A DNA stretch of 46,864 bases from an uncultured Pelagibacteraceae bacterium (GCA_902518835.1 CABYHH010000007.1:1-46864), one strand, 5' to 3'; shown: positions 21,160-33,648, counted from the stretch's first letter. Translations and numbers: made by a program. The notes: a model not told the origin generated them from the letters alone.

Positions 21160-21840
21160 TTATCCAATACCCTTCCAGGTATTTCCATCAGGTGTATAAT
21201 GATGATAAACAGAATGACTTGGGTCATAGAGAAAGTTCATATTGTTTTTTCTAATTTCTATGGCCCAATATCTATCTTCTTTACCAGATAAATTCTCATC
21301 AAATTTAAATTTAAGGAGTGTTTCTTTTTTATAGAATGAAAAAGCATTATGGAGAAAGTATCTATTTTCCATTGAGGAAAACATATTCTCTTCTTTTTTG
21401 TCCCCAAAATGTTCCCATATATATCGACTCGTTATCCTTTTTCCATCGATAACTGGAATTTGTTTTCCAAATACTGCTGAAAACTTTTTTAAACTCTCAA
21501 TCAATAAGCCGTGGTCTAAGTCTTTAATGACACAATGACTCGATATTATCATTAGATTATCATGCTTAGCTAACTCGACCCCTTTATTTAGAGCTTTTCC
21601 CGGTGTATAGTCTTTAATATTTTTAATACTAATATCACAATAATTAGACAATTCATTATTTGAAAAATTTGGATTAATTCTAAAATTTCTGGCAATCTCA
21701 ATTGTTCTATCATTAGAATTATTATCAATAATTAATATCTCTGGTTTATAAAAATTATCTATTACAGATTGGATTGTGTGGCCAACCCATCTTTCTTCAT
21801 TTTTTGTTCTTAATAATATTGAAAATTGGTTTTTGGTCAT
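21160..21840 (-). CDS. Glycosyltransferase family 2 (GT-A), short form
   Basis: The 226-residue protein has the GT2 start I-L-L-R-T-K-N-E-E-R-W-V-G, then I-L-I-I-D-N-N-S-N-D-R-T and P-G-K-A-L-N-K-G. In place of the DxD it shows I-S-S-H-C-V, followed by G-K-E-D-R-Y-W-A, and it ends H-H-Y-T-P-D-G-N-T-W-K-G-I-G. This ending recurs in a GT2 group from sugar-acid loci as far as I can recall, so I take the protein as complete rather than truncated despite its small size. Its downstream partner is only a remnant now. The S-S-H-C variant means metal binding may differ from classical GT-A enzymes. Confidence 0.82.
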   Translation of the reverse strand: MTKNQFSILLRTKNEERWVGHTIQSVIDNFYKPEILIIDNNSNDRTIEIARNFRINPNFSNNELSNYCDISIKNIKDYTPGKALNKGVELAKHDNLMIISSHCVIKDLDHGLLIESLKKFSAVFGKQIPVIDGKRITSRYIWEHFGDKKEENMFSSMENRYFLHNAFSFYKKETLLKFKFDENLSGKEDRYWAIEIRKNNMNFLYDPSHSVYHHYTPDGNTWKGIG

Positions 21841-22288: not shown

Positions 22289-24001
22289 GTGATTGGAAAT
22301 AAAAAAGTTTTAATAAATATTCTCGCTAGATCAGGATCTACAGGAATTAAAAATAAAAATGTAGCAGATTTAAACGGAAAACCTGTTTTATGGTATTCAA
22401 TTACAGAGGCGCTAAAAAGTAAATATGCTGATGACATATGTTTTTCTACAGACAGTCAAGAGTATGCTGATTTAGCCAAAGATACAACTGGCTTAGATAT
22501 TCCTTTTTTAAGAAACCCAAAATATGCCAAAAAAAACTCGACAGCAGCTGATGCATCAAGATGGACAACTCTAACTTTTGAAAAACATTCAGGTAAAAAA
22601 TATGATTTTATTGTTGATTTTATGAATTCAAATCCATTCAAAATTGTTGATGACTTAGATGCTTGTATAGAGATTTTATATAAAAATAAAAAAGCTGACA
22701 CTGTTGTGGCTGTTAACCGAGTTTGGGATGGGCATCCCAATAGAATTAAACAAATTGTTAATGGAGAAATTCAAGATTGGCCTGGTACTAAAGAAAAATT
22801 AGAGTCAATGAGACAAGAGCTTAGACCACCAGCTTATATCAGGAGTGGTTCTGTTTATGCAATGAAAAGACATGTGTTAATAGATGAGATTAATAGACGA
22901 GGAAAAATTAGTCTTCCATACATTATGCCTGATGAAAGAGTTTGTAATTTAGATGAACCAAAAGATTTATTCACAGCAAGAGCCATGATGGCTCAAAGAA
23001 GTCTAAGTTATAAAAAAGATTCTATTAAATCAAAAAAATTAAAAATTTTAGTCACCTCAAAAATTAGTGATCTAAAAGAAATTCTAGAGATTGTTAATAA
23101 TATTGGAGAAGTAAAAATATTAAATAATATAACAAGGTTACAATTAAAAAAAATAATTAATTTTTATGATGTCCTTCTATGCTCAACAAATATAAAAATA
23201 GATCAAGAGTTATTTAAAAAATTTAAAAAGATAAAAATAAAATATATAATTACACCTTCAGTTGGAATTGATCATCTAGATAAGCCATTTTTAAAAAAAA
23301 AGAAAATTAAAATTTTTTCATTAGTAAATTCTCATAATGATACAAAAAATATTTTTTCACCTGCTGAACTAACTTTTGCCCATATCCTAAATATTTCAAA
23401 AAATTTCTTAGGTGCCGTTTCATCTGTCAAAAATGGAAAATGGCAACCAAATAATCACATAGGTTTTGAATTAGATGGTAAGGTCATCGGAATAATTGGA
23501 ATGGGTGCAGTTGGTACTATCCTCGCAAAATATTGTATATCATTTGGTTTAAAAATCATTGCCTACGATCCATATAAAATAATAAATGATGTGCATATTA
23601 ATCAAGTAAGCGATTTAGATCAATTATTAACTAGTTCTGACATAATCTCCGTAAACGTATCGGGCATTAAAGAAAATACAAATTTGATTTCTGAGTATCA
23701 GTTTAAGTTAATGAAAAAAAATGCAATTTTAATAAATACTTCTAGAGGAAACACAGTGAACATTGAAGCTCTAATCAATAATATTGAGAAAATGAAAATT
23801 GCAGGTGCGGGAATTGACGTGATACAAAATGAACATGAATTTCCAAAAAATTATTCAAAGAAATTACTAAATAGGATGCTAAAATTACAAAAACAAAATA
23901 AGTTATTTATTACTCCTCATATTGCTGGCAGCACTTATGAAGCGAGAGTAAAAAGATTAAAATATGTTTTAAAATATTTTTTAAAAGAATTAAAAAAATG
24001 A
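22289..24001 (+). CDS. Fusion: CMP-sugar cytidylyltransferase + D-2-hydroxyacid dehydrogenase
   Basis: One 570-residue protein with two enzymes. Residues 4-235 are an acylneuraminate/Kdo cytidylyltransferase: I-L-A-R-S-G-S-T-G-I-K-N-K-N-V (CTP loop), F-S-T-D-S, D-F-M-N-S-N-P-F-K, and L-D222-E-P-K-D (metal Asp). Residues 250-570 are a D-2-hydroxyacid dehydrogenase: P-A-E-L near 359, G-M-G-A-V-G 404-409, Y-D-P after the second strand, T-S-R486-G, and T-P-H544-I-A-G; the usual E-P motif reads N-E-H-E-F-P. The start is GTG at 22289, since TGA lies six bases upstream in frame. It is the first gene of a four-gene operon. It probably oxidises or reduces a sugar acid and activates it with CMP; the substrate is unknown. 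Confidence 0.87.
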   Translation: MIGNKKVLINILARSGSTGIKNKNVADLNGKPVLWYSITEALKSKYADDICFSTDSQEYADLAKDTTGLDIPFLRNPKYAKKNSTAADASRWTTLTFEKHSGKKYDFIVDFMNSNPFKIVDDLDACIEILYKNKKADTVVAVNRVWDGHPNRIKQIVNGEIQDWPGTKEKLESMRQELRPPAYIRSGSVYAMKRHVLIDEINRRGKISLPYIMPDERVCNLDEPKDLFTARAMMAQRSLSYKKDSIKSKKLKILVTSKISDLKEILEIVNNIGEVKILNNITRLQLKKIINFYDVLLCSTNIKIDQELFKKFKKIKIKYIITPSVGIDHLDKPFLKKKKIKIFSLVNSHNDTKNIFSPAELTFAHILNISKNFLGAVSSVKNGKWQPNNHIGFELDGKVIGIIGMGAVGTILAKYCISFGLKIIAYDPYKIINDVHINQVSDLDQLLTSSDIISVNVSGIKENTNLISEYQFKLMKKNAILINTSRGNTVNIEALINNIEKMKIAGAGIDVIQNEHEFPKNYSKKLLNRMLKLQKQNKLFITPHIAGSTYEARVKRLKYVLKYFLKELKK

Positions 24002-25134
24002 AAATTCTTGATGTCCAGGGATATTCTTTATCCTCCGGGTTTGGCAATAAATCATATCTTGGTTATTTAAATAACAATAAGTTAAAAAATATTGGAGTGA
24101 TTGAAATAGTTACAAATAAGAAAATTATTGGATATGGAGAAACATATTCAGGTGTTTATGCTGGAGAATTGATTAAACCAATAATCGATTTTTTAAAAAC
24201 AAACATTGTGAACAAAAAATTAGAAAATATTGACGATATCAAAAAAATAAATAGTAAAATTTTATCAAAACCCTTCATATCTAGGAATGGAATCATTCCA
24301 TCAGTATACAGTGCAATTAATATAGCCTTATATGATGCGCTATCGCAACATAAAGAAATCCCATTGTATAAGTTACTCTCAAAAAAAAGCGCAAAAAAAG
24401 TGAGAGTGTACGCGAGCAATGGTTCATCTACATTTTCACCGAGAGAAATAAAAGAGGATGTTAACAAAATATTAGATCTTGGTTTTAATTCATTTAAAAT
24501 GAGGATCGGACATCAGGAGTGGGGTCAAGATCTAAAAAGAGTTGAGACAGCAAGAGCAATTCTAGAAGATAAAAATTTGATGCTAGATGCAATAATGGGC
24601 TCAATTTACCCCCCATGGGATTATGCCAAAGCAGATAAAAAATTAAGACAAATAAATAAATTTAATCCTTTGTGGATTGAAGAGCCACTAATTCCAAATG
24701 ACTATTATGGATACCAACGATTAAATAAAAAATATCCTATTGCAGGTGGAGAGGCTTTAAATAATTTATCTGATTATGGAATTTATAAAGAATTTAATTG
24801 TGTGGACTATATACAACCCGATGTAACTAATGTTGGAGGTTATGATGTTTTAAAAATGATAGCTCAATTATTCAAAAAAAAAAAAATTGCTATTCATGTT
24901 TGGGGAAGTAAAATAGCCTTTTTAGCCAATCTTCATTACTGCTTATCCAGTAGTGTGAATTTTCTCGAATATCCGATGATGAATCTTGATATTGATAAAG
25001 AAATAATCAAAGAAAGTCTCAAGATTGAAGGTAACTATATACATCCACCAGATGAACCTGGTCTTGGAGTTCATATTTCTTCATCAGTAAAAAGGAAATA
25101 TAAGATTAAGAAAATGTCAAATTATCTTTTATGA
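23998..25134 (+). CDS. Enolase-superfamily (mandelate racemase/muconate-lactonizing type) sugar-acid dehydratase or epimerase
   Basis: The 378-residue protein has the capping domain then the (beta/alpha)8 barrel. F-K167-M-R169 is at the end of strand 2. Metal ligands are D197 (M-L-D-A), E228 (W-I-E-E-P) and E252 (A-G-G-E-A). A His-Asp pair is H300 (A-I-H-V-W) with D275 (Q-P-D-V). This matches the mandelate racemase subgroup, which removes a proton alpha to a carboxylate; most such bacterial enzymes dehydrate aldonates to 2-keto-3-deoxy acids. The second residue of the K-x-K motif is Arg. ATGA overlaps join it to both neighbours. A run of 13 A (24874-24886) codes for four lysines shortly before H300. 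Confidence 0.86.
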   Translation: MKILDVQGYSLSSGFGNKSYLGYLNNNKLKNIGVIEIVTNKKIIGYGETYSGVYAGELIKPIIDFLKTNIVNKKLENIDDIKKINSKILSKPFISRNGIIPSVYSAINIALYDALSQHKEIPLYKLLSKKSAKKVRVYASNGSSTFSPREIKEDVNKILDLGFNSFKMRIGHQEWGQDLKRVETARAILEDKNLMLDAIMGSIYPPWDYAKADKKLRQINKFNPLWIEEPLIPNDYYGYQRLNKKYPIAGGEALNNLSDYGIYKEFNCVDYIQPDVTNVGGYDVLKMIAQLFKKKKIAIHVWGSKIAFLANLHYCLSSSVNFLEYPMMNLDIDKEIIKESLKIEGNYIHPPDEPGLGVHISSSVKRKYKIKKMSNYLL

Positions 25135-26081
25135 TTCATATATATTGCGATTTAATTAAAAGGACAAAAATAAATAATTTACCAAAATGGGGTAAAATTA
25201 AAATAAAATCACAATTTCCAGGAATTAAATTTGTTTATTCTATTAAAAAAGAAAATAAAAAAATATTAGTATATTTTGGAGATTTGATCACAAAAGAAAA
25301 AATAGAGCTAATGCCAAATTTAAAATGGATACACTTTTCATCTTCTGGTACCAACAGGGCTCAATTAGAAATAGTGAAAAAAAGGAAAATAGTTATAACA
25401 AACAGTCCTGATGGATTTGTAAATTCTCTTGCATCACTGGGCTTAGCACATATTTTTTCTTTTGCTCGAGGCTTGCATTTTGTAAATAATTTAAGAAATA
25501 AAAAAAAATTAAATAGGAATGAAATTGATAGATATTATTATTTCATTGATGATTTAAGAGAAAAAAATATACTTATAGCAGGCTTTGGTAAGGTAGGAAA
25601 GCTGATTGCAAACGTGCTTAAGATAATGGGTGCAAACATACATGTAATGGTGAAAAATAATAAAAAAACAAATTCTAATAATTTTAATTTTTATTATTCA
25701 AATAAAATTTCAAGATTTATTCATAAGATGGATTATGTAGTAAATCTTCTACCATTAAATAATGATACTTTAAAATTTTTTGATATTAATCTTTTTAAAA
25801 AAATGAAAAAAAATTCATATTTTATTTCTTTAGGTAGAGGTCAAACAGTAGTTGAGAAAGATTTAATAAAAGCGTTAAAAAAGAAATTAATATTGGGTGC
25901 TGCATTAGATGTTTTTGAAAAAGAACCTCTGTCTAAAAAGTCAACATTATTTAAGTTGAAAAATGTAATTTTAACTCCTCACATTGGTAATATTAATCAT
26001 AAATATTGGAAATATGAAATTGACTTATTTTCAAAAAAACTTAAAATTTTTTTAGATAAATTAGATTATGACAAAAAATGA
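25131..26081 (+). CDS. D-2-hydroxyacid dehydrogenase (NAD/NADP-dependent)
   Basis: A second, free-standing dehydrogenase of the same superfamily, 316 residues. It has L-I-A-G-F-G-K-V-G (dinucleotide loop), V-N-L-L-P-L-N, S-L-G-R-G-Q (catalytic Arg), L-D-V-F-E-K-E-P (catalytic Glu) and T-P-H-I-G-N (catalytic His), so the full catalytic set is present. Unlike the fused copy, the E-P motif is canonical. The T-A-E segment is replaced by N-S-L-A-S-L-G-L-A. The ATG overlaps the enolase-superfamily stop (ATGA) and its 3' end overlaps the DAHPS-like gene by 14 bases. It may interconvert a 2-keto acid and a 2-hydroxy acid in the same pathway. Confidence 0.88.
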   Translation: MIHIYCDLIKRTKINNLPKWGKIKIKSQFPGIKFVYSIKKENKKILVYFGDLITKEKIELMPNLKWIHFSSSGTNRAQLEIVKKRKIVITNSPDGFVNSLASLGLAHIFSFARGLHFVNNLRNKKKLNRNEIDRYYYFIDDLREKNILIAGFGKVGKLIANVLKIMGANIHVMVKNNKKTNSNNFNFYYSNKISRFIHKMDYVVNLLPLNNDTLKFFDINLFKKMKKNSYFISLGRGQTVVEKDLIKALKKKLILGAALDVFEKEPLSKKSTLFKLKNVILTPHIGNINHKYWKYEIDLFSKKLKIFLDKLDYDKK

Positions 26082-26922
26082 ATATATAGAAAGTTTGATT
26101 AAAGCCGATAAAATTAAACATACAGTTGATAAAAGTATAAACTTTCAATTTCAAATAGGATCAAAAACATTAGGTGAGGAAAAAGTTTTAATTGCCGGTC
26201 CATGTTCAGTTGAGTCAAAAGATATGATCATAGATGTTTCTTTAAAATTAAAAGAAATTGGTGTTGATGCCCTAAGAGGTGGTGCTTATAAACCTTGCAC
26301 ATATCCTGTGAGAAAATCTGTAAATGGTTGGAAAGAAGGGTTGCAGAAAGAAGGTCTTGAATATTTATTGAATGCAAAAGATAAATCTGGCCTGCCTATT
26401 GTTACAGAGGTTATGGATGCCTCGAAAATAAATTTAGTATCAGAATATGCGGATATTTTTCAGGTAGGTACAAGAAATTTCCAAAACTACACGCTTCTAG
26501 ACGAACTTGGAAAACAAGATAAGCCCATCCTATTAAAAAGAGGCACGTGGGGAACTTTAGATGAGATATTGGGAGCATGTGAAAGAATTATTGAAGGTGG
26601 AAACACTAAAATTGCAATATGTTTAAGGGGTGTTGTGGGCATGCCAAGCTATAGGCATATTTTTCCATCAACAAGATGGGCTCCAGATTTAATGATGATT
26701 CCAGCACTTAAGGAATTTACAAATATCCCAATTATATATGATCCAAGCCATGCTACTGGTTATAGAAATTTTGTTTTACCAATCTCAAAAGCTGCAATGG
26801 CACTAAATGTGGATGGATTAATTGTTGAATGCCATCCAAAACCTGAGAAATCTATAAGCGACCCTGATCAGGCTATAACATTTAATAATTTAAAAAAAAT
26901 AAAAGAACTCTTCAAGAATTAA
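26068..26922 (+). CDS. DAHP-synthase-like (class I-beta) PEP aldolase with altered aldose-phosphate site
   Basis: Family members condense phosphoenolpyruvate with an aldose phosphate to make a 3-deoxy-ulosonate. The 284-residue protein shows I-A-G-P-C46-S-V-E-S (metal Cys), L-R-G-G-A-Y-K75-P, T-E-V-M-D, I-F-Q-V-G-T-R-N, L-L-K-R-G-T, D-P-S-H-A and I-V-E-C-H-P, the frame of Thermotoga/Bacillus-type DAHP synthase without ACT or chorismate mutase domains. The segment that binds the erythrose-4-phosphate phosphate is normally K-P-R-T-S-P; here it is K-P-C77-T-Y-P. The substrate is therefore likely different. It is the last gene of the operon, so it probably serves glycan rather than aromatic synthesis; the latter is not excluded. 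Confidence 0.85.
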   Translation: MTKNEYIESLIKADKIKHTVDKSINFQFQIGSKTLGEEKVLIAGPCSVESKDMIIDVSLKLKEIGVDALRGGAYKPCTYPVRKSVNGWKEGLQKEGLEYLLNAKDKSGLPIVTEVMDASKINLVSEYADIFQVGTRNFQNYTLLDELGKQDKPILLKRGTWGTLDEILGACERIIEGGNTKIAICLRGVVGMPSYRHIFPSTRWAPDLMMIPALKEFTNIPIIYDPSHATGYRNFVLPISKAAMALNVDGLIVECHPKPEKSISDPDQAITFNNLKKIKELFKN

Positions 26923-30529: not shown

Positions 30530-31600
30530 TTAATATTTCTTAACATCCTTCATCCTAATCACATCACCATTTTTGATATTCTTAATAATTTTTTTACCTA
30601 ATATATCTTTAGCCTTATATGGAGGAAGAGCATTTAATGGACAAGGTCTCAAAAATATCAAATCAGATCTATTTATTCTTGAGCCCTTTTTAATATTTTT
30701 ATTAACTCTTATTGCGCGTTTTTGAACTATAGCGGGTTGGATTTCATTTTTTTCAATAACTTTTTTTCCATTACCTAGTGATTTTTCTAACTCTCTTGCT
30801 CTATTAATCATTTCCTTCCATGTTTCAGGATTCATTGAAAATTTATGATCTGGTCCATCCAAGCTATTGTCAATAGTAAAATGTTTTTCAATCATTCTGG
30901 CACCTAGTGTAATCGCTCCTAAAACTGTACTATGGCCACTTGTATGATCACTAAGTCCTAATATAACATTTGGAAATTTTTTTTTATATAACTTTAAAAC
31001 ATTTAAATTGATAAAATTAAAATTATCTTTTGAATTTGTATAATTGGTGTTGCATTGCATAAGGCAAATTTGCTTATTATTTTTTTTCAAAATTTTAATT
31101 GCCATTTCAACTTCTTTAAAATTGGATGCACCTGATGCTAGTATCACGGGTTTTTTTTTTTTTGATATATATTTTAGAATATCATGCCAGGTTATATCAC
31201 CAGATCCAATTTTATAAACGGATACATATGGATCTATATGATCCACCATATCAAAATCATATGGGCTAGTAAAAAAATCAATACCTACTTTATCACATTC
31301 TTTTTTTAATATTGGTGTCCAAGATAAGTTGATTGATGCATCTTTATAAACTTCAAAAACGCTTTTTTTCCATTTAGCTTGATGGGATAATTTACCCTTA
31401 AGGGATTTAAAACCAAAATCGCTTACTATCGTCTCTGCAGAAAAATGTTGAAATTTTGCAGCATCTGCTCCTGCAGCTTTAGCAGCATGAATTAATTCTT
31501 TAGCTCTCTTAAGTGATCCATCATGGTTCGCTGCAATATCAGCAATAAAATAAGTTTTTGATTTGTTCGAGATAGTTTTTTTATTTATCTTAAATTTCAT
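30530..31600 (-). CDS. neuB: Nonulosonic acid synthase (NeuB/PseI/LegI family)
   Basis: Condenses PEP with a six-carbon N-acyl amino sugar to a nine-carbon nonulosonic acid. In the 356-residue protein, F-I-A-D-I-A-A-N-H-D-G-S and D-A-A-K-F-Q-H-F begin the barrel. Y-K-I-G-S-G-D, I-L-A-S-G-A-S, G-L-S-D-H-T, I-E-K-H-F-T and D-H-K-F-S-M-N-P-E follow, and the SAF (antifreeze-like) domain has R-A-I-R-V-N-K-N-I-K-K-G. A TTG at 31606 gives two more residues; the ATG at 31600 is preferred. The start A-D-I-A-A-N-H-D-G-S resembles PseI/legionaminate types more than sialic acid types, but I cannot tell which. A run of 13 T (31151-31163) encodes four lysines. Confidence 0.91.
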   Translation of the reverse strand: MKFKINKKTISNKSKTYFIADIAANHDGSLKRAKELIHAAKAAGADAAKFQHFSAETIVSDFGFKSLKGKLSHQAKWKKSVFEVYKDASINLSWTPILKKECDKVGIDFFTSPYDFDMVDHIDPYVSVYKIGSGDITWHDILKYISKKKKPVILASGASNFKEVEMAIKILKKNNKQICLMQCNTNYTNSKDNFNFINLNVLKLYKKKFPNVILGLSDHTSGHSTVLGAITLGARMIEKHFTIDNSLDGPDHKFSMNPETWKEMINRARELEKSLGNGKKVIEKNEIQPAIVQKRAIRVNKNIKKGSRINRSDLIFLRPCPLNALPPYKAKDILGKKIIKNIKNGDVIRMKDVKKY

Positions 31601-31602
31601 AA

Positions 31603-33648
31603 TCAATTTAATCTTGAAAACGTAGATTGAGAAACTGGTCCTTTAAGAATAGATTTTGATTTTATTTGTTTTTTTTTAAATTTTGATATTTTTTTTATAA
31701 TAATTTCAAATTCTTTTAAATAATTTAAAATTATTTTTCGAGTGTGTGCAGTGCTAACATAAATTGTATTAGTAGCCAAAATATTCTTCTTCAACATTTC
31801 TTGTGTCAAATATGTTTTCAAAACTTGATGATCATTATCAAAAGTAAATGTTGGCATAGCATTTAATCCTGAAATATTAATATTTATATTATATTTTTCA
31901 CAAATCTCTTTCCATTTCTTTTTTATAAATTCTCCAGAGCGATTAATTTTGTTCCATGGTTTTGTTTTTTCCATTATTTCTATGGTTTTTAAAGCTGCCG
32001 AAACTCCTATTTTTTCAGTCCAAAAAGTACTGCTGACAAATGTGTTTTTTGCTTTTTTCATAATTTTATTTTTTCCCAAAACTGCTGTTATTCCATAACC
32101 ATTTCCAATTGCTTTTCCAAATGTTGCTATGTCAGGATTAACCCCATATTGTAAATGTAGACCACCAAGATTATATCTAAAACCTGTTGTACATTCATCA
32201 AATATAAGAATTATTTTATTATCATTACAAATTTTTCTAATTTTTTTTAAAAAATTATTTTCTGGTTTAAAATTTCTAGAAACTTCCATTATTAAAGAAG
32301 ATATTTTATTTTTATTATTTTTAATAATATTTATTAGTTCATTGATTTCGTTATATTTAAAAGCTAGGATGCTATTTTTTAATGATTTGCTTACACCCTC
32401 CGTCTTAATCCCTTTTAATAAATGTTGATCTACTTTTTTATCAACTAAATTATTTGCTAAATACCAATCATTCCATCCGTGATAACCACAAAAGATCACT
32501 AAATCTTTTTTTGTAAAAGCTCTTGATAATCTAATTGCGATTGAATTAGCGTCGGCGCCAGTTCTTGCAAATTTAACCATATTAGACCACTTATGAATTT
32601 TAATTAGTTTTTCTGCTAAAATTATTTCATCAGGATTGTTTAATGTTGTAAGATTACCGGACTTTATTGCTTTAGAAACAGACTTATTTACTTGAGAATT
32701 GTTGTATCCTAGAATATTTGTTCCAACTCCCATAAAACTCAAGTCCAAATATTTTTTTTTATCTAAACCCCAAATTTTACAACCTTCTGATTTGGTATAA
32801 TAGGTCGGCCAATTCTCTGGTAGAAAAATCTCTGGTCTTTTAGATAAAAGCATATTACCTCCTGGAATTACTTTTTTTGCTCGTTGCCAATATTTAAAAT
32901 TTTTTGACATTAATGACCCTTGATTATTAATAATATCTTTATTTATTTTTGATAAATCCTTATTTTTTTTTAAAATATTTATCATATCATTCATAGTAAA
33001 ATCTATATTTTGTATTTTTTTAAGAAGTATTTTTATAAGTTTAAGATCTTTTGATTCATCAACTGATAACCTAAAATTTGATAAATTGTTTGATAATTTA
33101 AAATTAAATTTTTTCAATTTTTTACTTCGCTTAATAAAAGGGGTTACGTGCTCTTTATCATGCGAAGAAGTTGCATTTTTATAAGCTAATTCAAGAGATC
33201 TAAAATTAAAAACTTCTACATCAAACCCATCAGGATAAGTATATTCTAAAGTATTACTTACATAATCAAATTTTGTTTTAAATTTTTTATTATCTATTTT
33301 ATTAATAAATTTATCAATAATTCTATGATCAACAAAAGGACAATCACCAGTTATTCTTATTATGATTTTCGATTTATCTTTTTTCGCAATTTTATAATAC
33401 CTATTAAGTACATTTTCCTCACTTCCACGAAAAACTTTTACTTTACTATTTTTAAATAATTTACAAAGCTTGTTATCTTCAGATTTAGTTGTTGTGGCTA
33501 AATAAAAACTATTGATTTTTTTGGATCTAAATAATCTTAAAAATAAAAATTCAATTAAAGAATAATCCTTGTTTATTTTTTCTAAAACTTTATTTGGATA
33601 CCTTATGGAACCACATCTTGCTTGAACTATTACAGTTATATTTTCCAT
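31603..33648 (-). CDS. Fusion: SpsF-type cytidylyltransferase + glutamate-1-semialdehyde aminotransferase-like protein
   Basis: A 681-residue bifunctional protein. Residues 1-235 form an SpsF/NeuA-like CMP-sugar transferase (V-I-V-Q-A-R-C-G-S-I-R-Y-P-N-K-V, R-I-T-G-D102-C-P-F-V-D107, N-F-R-L-S-V-D). Residues 247-681 form a class III PLP aminotransferase of the GSAM type: K-V-I-P-G-G, R-T-G-A-D-A-N, G-Y-H-G-W-N-D, I-F-D484-E-C-T-T-G-F-R and T-F-G-K512-A-I-G-N-G with the Schiff-base Lys. An internal Met at 247 (base 32910) would begin a normal aminotransferase, so the fusion is end to end. Between neuB and an aldo/keto reductase, it probably supplies the sugar amino group and CMP-activates the nonulosonic acid. 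Confidence 0.89.
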   Translation of the reverse strand: MENITVIVQARCGSIRYPNKVLEKINKDYSLIEFLFLRLFRSKKINSFYLATTTKSEDNKLCKLFKNSKVKVFRGSEENVLNRYYKIAKKDKSKIIIRITGDCPFVDHRIIDKFINKIDNKKFKTKFDYVSNTLEYTYPDGFDVEVFNFRSLELAYKNATSSHDKEHVTPFIKRSKKLKKFNFKLSNNLSNFRLSVDESKDLKLIKILLKKIQNIDFTMNDMINILKKNKDLSKINKDIINNQGSLMSKNFKYWQRAKKVIPGGNMLLSKRPEIFLPENWPTYYTKSEGCKIWGLDKKKYLDLSFMGVGTNILGYNNSQVNKSVSKAIKSGNLTTLNNPDEIILAEKLIKIHKWSNMVKFARTGADANSIAIRLSRAFTKKDLVIFCGYHGWNDWYLANNLVDKKVDQHLLKGIKTEGVSKSLKNSILAFKYNEINELINIIKNNKNKISSLIMEVSRNFKPENNFLKKIRKICNDNKIILIFDECTTGFRYNLGGLHLQYGVNPDIATFGKAIGNGYGITAVLGKNKIMKKAKNTFVSSTFWTEKIGVSAALKTIEIMEKTKPWNKINRSGEFIKKKWKEICEKYNININISGLNAMPTFTFDNDHQVLKTYLTQEMLKKNILATNTIYVSTAHTRKIILNYLKEFEIIIKKISKFKKKQIKSKSILKGPVSQSTFSRLN

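Follow-up and report, generated by a model that had tools for sequence, protein, structure and literature searches.

In the nonulosonate (NeuB/NeuA-type) pathways for sugars linked to cytidine monophosphate (CMP), a phosphoenolpyruvate (PEP)-dependent aldolase of the NeuB superfamily and a cytidylyltransferase of the CTP_transf_3 family are followed by a glycosyltransferase, and in the 3-deoxy-D-manno-octulosonate (Kdo) pathway (KdsA, KdsB, KdsC and Kdo transferase), condensation with PEP is likewise followed by CMP activation. Pelagimyophages, which are marine T4-like phages, carry glycan genes in hypervariable host-recognition regions, including glycosyltransferases for which a role in changing the surface of the host has been proposed (PMC7029224). 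Here we describe a locus that has an aldolase, a cytidylyltransferase and a glycosyltransferase of these general kinds, located in a 46,864-nucleotide stretch of DNA from an uncultured Pelagibacteraceae bacterium (GCA_902518835.1, CABYHH010000007.1:1-46864; this whole stretch is termed the window). We consider it probable that the genes listed below, in which DAHP stands for 3-deoxy-D-arabino-heptulosonate 7-phosphate, constitute one version of a modular, CMP-ulosonate-type cassette for a surface glycan.

22289-24001 (+): open reading frame (ORF) of the cytidylyltransferase-HDH1 fusion
22289-23023 (+): cytidylyltransferase domain, fusion residues 1-245, GTG start (PF02348, 59.5 bits)
23024-24001 (+): HDH1, D-2-hydroxyacid dehydrogenase domain, fusion residues ~246-570 (PF02826/PF00389)
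23998-25134 (+): ENO, mandelate-racemase-type enzyme of the enolase superfamily (PF13378/PF02746, MR_MLE N and C)
25131-26081 (+): HDH2, second D-2-hydroxyacid dehydrogenase, partner of ENO (PF02826)
26068-26922 (+): DAHPL, type I-beta DAHP-synthase-like PEP-dependent aldolase (PF00793, 187.6 bits)
21160-21840 (-): GT2, small glycosyltransferase of 226 amino acids, divergent from the operon (cassette orthologues and predicted GT-A fold)

Consecutive operon ORFs overlap, twice by 4 bases (ATGA) and once by 14 bases, as a preliminary description of this DNA had reported for four overlapping genes at 22289-26922. Its family assignments were also borne out, with Pfam matches above the gathering cut-offs for all operon families (CTP_transf_3 at residues 11-141 and 2-Hacid_dh/2-Hacid_dh_C at residues 253-546 of the fusion) and catalytic residues retained in ENO and DAHPL. 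NCBIfam models placed every operon protein in a superfamily, and none reached the curated cut-off for a named enzyme; the proposal of a CMP-linked acid-sugar pathway outside the named ones stands, and none of the four genes is accounted for by a curated family model. GT2, on the opposite strand, is a cassette member that the earlier gene set had lacked.

Cassette composition and co-occurrence

The conserved core of the cassette is a dehydrogenase, a cytidylyltransferase, a PEP-dependent aldolase and GT2. With GT2 as bait, 65 viral contigs and 3 genomes of the window's order, excluding the window's own, were recovered; orthologues sharing 42-57% identity with the window's GT2, used as baits, bring back the cassette. 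After the viral loci were dereplicated at 90% GT2 identity (n = 43), the full cassette was present in 38, as HDH, cytidylyltransferase and short NeuB in 23, as HDH, cytidylyltransferase and DAHPL in 12, and as cytidylyltransferase, ENO, HDH2 and short NeuB in 3. The incomplete loci comprise L093, L138 and L144, which are at contig ends, L094, which is on the contig of L033, whose cassette sits just upstream of the L094 stretch, and L117, where a cytidylyltransferase is fused to NeuB and the dehydrogenase is absent. Reciprocally, of the 47 loci found with HDH as bait, 46 had an aldolase, 42 had a cytidylyltransferase and 35 had the complete four-gene set. ENO used as a single-protein bait gave no matches on viral contigs; an alignment of relatives then gave five loci, and HDH2, cytidylyltransferase and GT2 were present in 5/5. 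Because both baits were run against one collection, these counts are not independent. With DAHPL as bait, 12 and then 15 orthologues (56-71% identity) were obtained from viral contigs; nearly all of them had a dehydrogenase and a short cytidylyltransferase as neighbors, and a small GT2 usually came next.

Two slots of the cassette are exchangeable. The dehydrogenase slot is filled either by HDH or by ENO with HDH2, and the aldolase slot by DAHPL or short NeuB, which were found together at no locus. The window holds both dehydrogenase options, and its exact combination was seen nowhere else. Thus, where the preliminary description had taken the four families as the unit and proposed that their neighborhoods be searched for co-occurrence, the modules do recur in dozens of loci, whereas the exact four-family set occurs in the window only, ENO with HDH2 being an alternative to the dehydrogenase of the core. 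This uniqueness raises the question of whether unrelated genes have simply gathered in a hypervariable surface-polysaccharide region, with only subsets of them cooperating. The G+C content is uneven between the genes (window, 0.237; DAHPL, 0.333; cytidylyltransferase part, 0.317; HDH1, 0.246; HDH2, 0.228), which fits a mosaic origin of the operon and favors such a view. However, the genes overlap at their starts and stops, and the same modules co-occur repeatedly in phages and several bacterial lineages. Since the same families recur jointly in dozens of unrelated loci, the grouping is not due to chance, and we regard an assembly of unrelated genes as very improbable. In minimal four-gene loci, no genes intervene between the cassette members, and no sugar epimerase, aminotransferase or phosphatase gene is found between them; these loci therefore have no dedicated phosphatase.

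Carriers of the cassette

A T4-type major capsid protein (Gp23) is encoded by 10 of the 11 GT2-bearing contigs of at least 100 kb, and by two additional contigs. Virus contigs of 298-548 kb (L220, L223, L228) carry the dehydrogenase, cytidylyltransferase and short NeuB (two copies in L223), and one 341 kb virus contig carries the dehydrogenase and cytidylyltransferase only. Within the window's order, short NeuB, GT2, cytidylyltransferase and HDH are present in G022 and G072, and the ENO form (short NeuB, GT2, ENO and HDH2, with a cytidylyltransferase nearby) is present in G255. The picocyanobacterium Synechococcus AG-679-A04 (L045) has a DAHPL-form cassette, and another member of its family (L162) has the short NeuB form, flanked by genes that we take to be Pcb-like. 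A Bacteroidota single cell (L042) also carries the cassette, an Elusimicrobia locus (L044) has DAHPL next to a divergent, more distant GT2, and L043, a short contig in a metagenome-assembled genome labelled Nitrosopelagicus, may be viral contamination of that assembly. The genome collection was covered by one pattern-based scan, and the number of bacterial carriers is a lower bound. No GT2 orthologue was found among 50,697 cultured-phage records, nor was a DAHPL orthologue found in cultured phage records, where the best matches (at most 43%) were unannotated records resembling host DNA.

In five other loci (L230, L231, L232, L235, L237), a divergent dehydrogenase (32-35% identity) is encoded near a divergent NeuB-like protein, without the cassette cytidylyltransferase and GT2. 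These loci possibly represent a third branch.

Aldolases of the cassette

DAHPL orthologues in cassettes are 54-71% identical to the window protein, which keeps the Cys of GPCSVE, GTRN, LLKRG, DPSH, E254 and D265. The metal and PEP residues (GPC, GTRN, LLKRG, DPSH, E and D) are invariant in 12 sequences, placing the protein in the superfamily of PEP-dependent metal aldolases. Its scores were below the NCBIfam cut-offs for DAHP synthase (TIGR01361, 261.1 vs. 267.75 bits; PRK08673, 283.9 vs. 335 bits) and for Kdo8P synthase (TIGR01362, 93.6 vs. 314 bits). DAHPL has two inserts, one after KPCTYP and one reading CLRGVVGxPSYRHxFPxxRWAPDLMM in place of CERGIRTFE, and it reads KPCT where the acceptor-phosphate motif of DAHP synthase is KPRTS. 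Armatimonadota DAHP synthases encoded in a hisC context (L046-L055) also read KPCTS for KPRTS, and the idea that the R-to-C change marks a loss of phosphate binding was dropped on that account.

Relatives of DAHPL were detected at E 1e-30 in 12 of 297 genomes of the order, the window's own included. The remaining 11 share 37-44% identity with DAHPL and are part of a different system; as orthologues (L006-L016) they were rejected, since in them Asn takes the place of the metal Cys and the partner is AroE-like. This second system (L019-L029, from relatives in the window's order) consists of a Gfo/Idh oxidoreductase, a DAHPS-like protein reading GPNMVES (with Asn where DAHP synthases have the metal Cys) and KPLTFPYR, and an AroE-like protein, usually accompanied by a CTP_transf_3 gene and a GT2 with an SxH motif. 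In a picocyanobacterium (L161), it lies beside a member of the window's GT2 subfamily.

The source draft genome (1.0 Mb, 86% complete) is from an order characterised by small genomes, and its size together with its low G+C content may point to SAR11. Elsewhere it encodes a type II DAHP synthase (677 bits) and a separate Kdo8P synthase (KdsA, locus L017). With these two synthases already present, a role for the cassette in central metabolism was rejected, and the objection that the preliminary description had raised against itself on this point falls away for the aldolase. Phosphonate routes that involve CMP were considered as well and set aside, although no search for PEP mutase was made.

The short NeuB of the related cassettes consists of the NeuB domain only, with no SAF domain, and reads GRDN in 37/37 sequences; at this position, GPDH is found in the NeuBs of the window and L088. 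It scored 199 bits against a cut-off of 399.65 bits for the NeuB_NnaB equivalog. Because DAHPL and a NeuB-family protein are swapped in otherwise equal cassettes, we argue that both condense PEP with an aldehyde. The window, a surface-polysaccharide region with numerous glycosyltransferase and sugar-nucleotide genes, also contains at 30530-33648 (-) a second, more conventional nonulosonate-type set, made up of a SAF-containing NeuB and, next to it, a fusion of a cytidylyltransferase with a class-III aminotransferase.

Cytidylyltransferase and glycosyltransferase

The cytidylyltransferase domain of the fusion belongs to CTP_transf_3 (PF02348 gathering cut-off, 22.6 bits), as do three further proteins of the source genome, and its sole phmmer matches in the PDB were CMP-sialate synthetases/NeuA. 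It is 39-44% identical to the stand-alone cassette cytidylyltransferases, which are often short (median 186 amino acids). The nearest named relatives are PseF and NeuA, and the PseF model (TIGR03584) gave 87.8 bits against a cut-off of 205.7. This kinship, and the membership of short NeuB in the NeuB family, would be expected if the cassette were an ordinary Kdo or nonulosonate (sialic, legionaminic or pseudaminic) pathway with divergent enzymes, to which HDH or ENO added accessory decorations. Scores for PseF, NeuB_NnaB and Kdo8P synthase are, however, far below the equivalog cut-offs, the short NeuBs differ in the missing SAF domain and in reading GRDN rather than GPDH, and the minimal four-gene loci have no precursor genes between their members, so that we hold an ordinary pathway of this kind to be improbable.

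GT2 is predicted to have a GT-A fold (mean pLDDT 86.7), its best fold matches in the PDB are GT2-type enzymes, and a phage orthologue matched Glycos_transf_2 with 62.1 bits, placing it in glycosyltransferase family 2. In the window protein, SxH (SSH) is found in place of the usual DxD metal/NDP-sugar motif, and SxH is shared by GT2 orthologues and by the GT2 genes that adjoin cytidylyltransferases in relatives; the motif scan yielded few DxD genes for comparison. To judge from this motif, GT2 could use a CMP donor without a metal.

Dehydrogenases and ENO

HDH1 and HDH2 are D-2-hydroxyacid dehydrogenases by Pfam domains and by their catalytic Arg and His, and both scored below the cut-offs for named enzymes such as SerA, GhrB and PdxB (best scores, 189.3 vs. 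454 for HDH1 and 147.1 vs. 400 for HDH2). In a dehydrogenase tree, HDH1 joined the cassette HDHs (support 100/99) and HDH2 joined the HDH2s of ENO-type cassettes, and neither grouped with SerA, with GhrB or with the genome's own HDH. ENO retains the metal ligands, KxR and the HVWG histidine of the mandelate racemase subgroup of the enolase superfamily, and shares 36-47% identity with the cassette ENOs of phages and G255, all of which have KMRIG, DAIMG and HVWGS. Its best score for a named dehydratase was 126.3 against 500 bits (L-talarate/galactarate dehydratase). ENO-HDH2-like pairs were also seen in a catabolic setting, with genes for a DapA-like aldolase and ABC transporters (L074, 9203-11386; L075, 1880-4023), which suggests that the biosynthetic version arose by recruitment from the breakdown of sugar acids.

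2-Hydroxyacid dehydrogenases and the ENO family need an alpha-hydroxy or alpha-keto acid, and at the level of families each operon enzyme would act on such acids. One way to supply the substrate would be for HDH to take the aldolase product and reduce its 2-keto group, after which the cytidylyltransferase would activate an open-chain 3-deoxyaldonic acid and GT2 would transfer an unusual CMP-linked acid. This directly explains why a D-2-hydroxyacid dehydrogenase accompanies the cytidylyltransferase and is here fused to it, but the anomeric center required by a glycosyltransferase is lost, and we know of no parallel; we find this route quite improbable. The linear route of the preliminary description, in which a keto acid is dehydrated, its redox state set twice and the product activated, found no support. 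The exchangeability of the dehydrogenase slot argues instead that the window holds two alternative modules, which need not act in series.

Proposed pathway

From gene content, co-occurrence, exchangeability, orthology and catalytic residues, we infer a CMP-ulosonate route in which a 3-deoxy-2-ulosonic acid would first arise by condensation of PEP with an aldehyde, catalyzed by DAHPL or, in other versions, by short NeuB. The cytidylyltransferase would then activate this acid as a CMP-sugar, and GT2 would transfer the sugar to a surface glycan. The target of HDH, or of ENO with HDH2, would be an alpha-hydroxy/alpha-keto acid group carried by either the acceptor or the product. The absence of SAF and the GRDN motif in short NeuB, the DAHPL inserts and the short cytidylyltransferases suggest a substrate that is smaller than those of nonulosonate pathways or non-N-acylated, and an unphosphorylated acceptor would explain the missing dedicated phosphatase. 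We tentatively propose, although it is doubtful, that the acceptor bears a carboxylate, giving a dicarboxylic (ulosaric-type) product; a carboxylated acceptor would provide a second acid end for the dehydrogenases and ENO, where HDH would set one alpha-hydroxyl next to the distal carboxylate, and ENO with HDH2 would remove the neighboring hydroxyl and re-reduce. The fullest version, in which interchangeable PEP aldolases use a carboxylated, unphosphorylated acceptor to make CMP-activated ulosaric sugars that are tailored by HDH or an enolase-superfamily enzyme, transferred by a DxD-less, CMP-using GT2, and exchanged between marine bacteria and large phages, for which they would reshape the surface of the cell or virion, is unlikely to hold in all its parts.

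Several observations weigh against the proposed route. GT2-family enzymes normally use NDP-sugars, and a CMP donor would be unusual; KPCT in DAHPL is not readable as a sign of a changed acceptor, because Armatimonadota DAHP synthases have it; the HDH1 branch is long in the dehydrogenase tree; and HDH1 is found with ENO and HDH2 in the window only, where they may act as alternatives or in series.

If the proposal holds, the cassette points to an acidic sugar of abundant ocean bacteria and large phages, and the GT2 subgroup without DxD may use CMP donors. Related products would then be expected from both aldolases and from both of the unrelated dehydrogenase modules, which makes the chemistry testable.

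Comparison with known systems

No description of the cassette was found in open-licence papers. It differs from nonulosonate pathways in having a SAF-less short NeuB or DAHPL, a dehydrogenase or ENO-HDH2 module, and a GT2-type transferase rather than one of the sialyltransferase families, and in the lack of precursor genes in its minimal form. Compared with the Kdo pathway, DAHPL is closer to DAHP synthase than to KdsA, minimal cassettes have no phosphatase gene, and the genome has a separate KdsA. DAHPL shares its fold family and PEP/metal-site residues with type I-beta DAHP synthases (AroF/AroA of the B. subtilis and T. maritima type), but has two inserts and a glycan-synthesis context, in a genome already provided with a type II enzyme. 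Similarly, ENO shares MR_MLE domains, metal ligands and the catalytic histidine with enolase-superfamily sugar-acid dehydratases (galactarate, arabinonate, galactonate), but is far below the equivalog cut-off and is always paired with HDH2 in the cassette. The cassette matches no described sugar pathway that we found, and we judge it to be a variant of CMP-ulosonate pathways not previously described. The pelagimyophage study mentions neither NeuB nor sialic acid, and the sections consulted describe no such cassette (PMC7029224); the cassette would extend the glycan genes of marine phages by a whole biosynthetic and transfer route.

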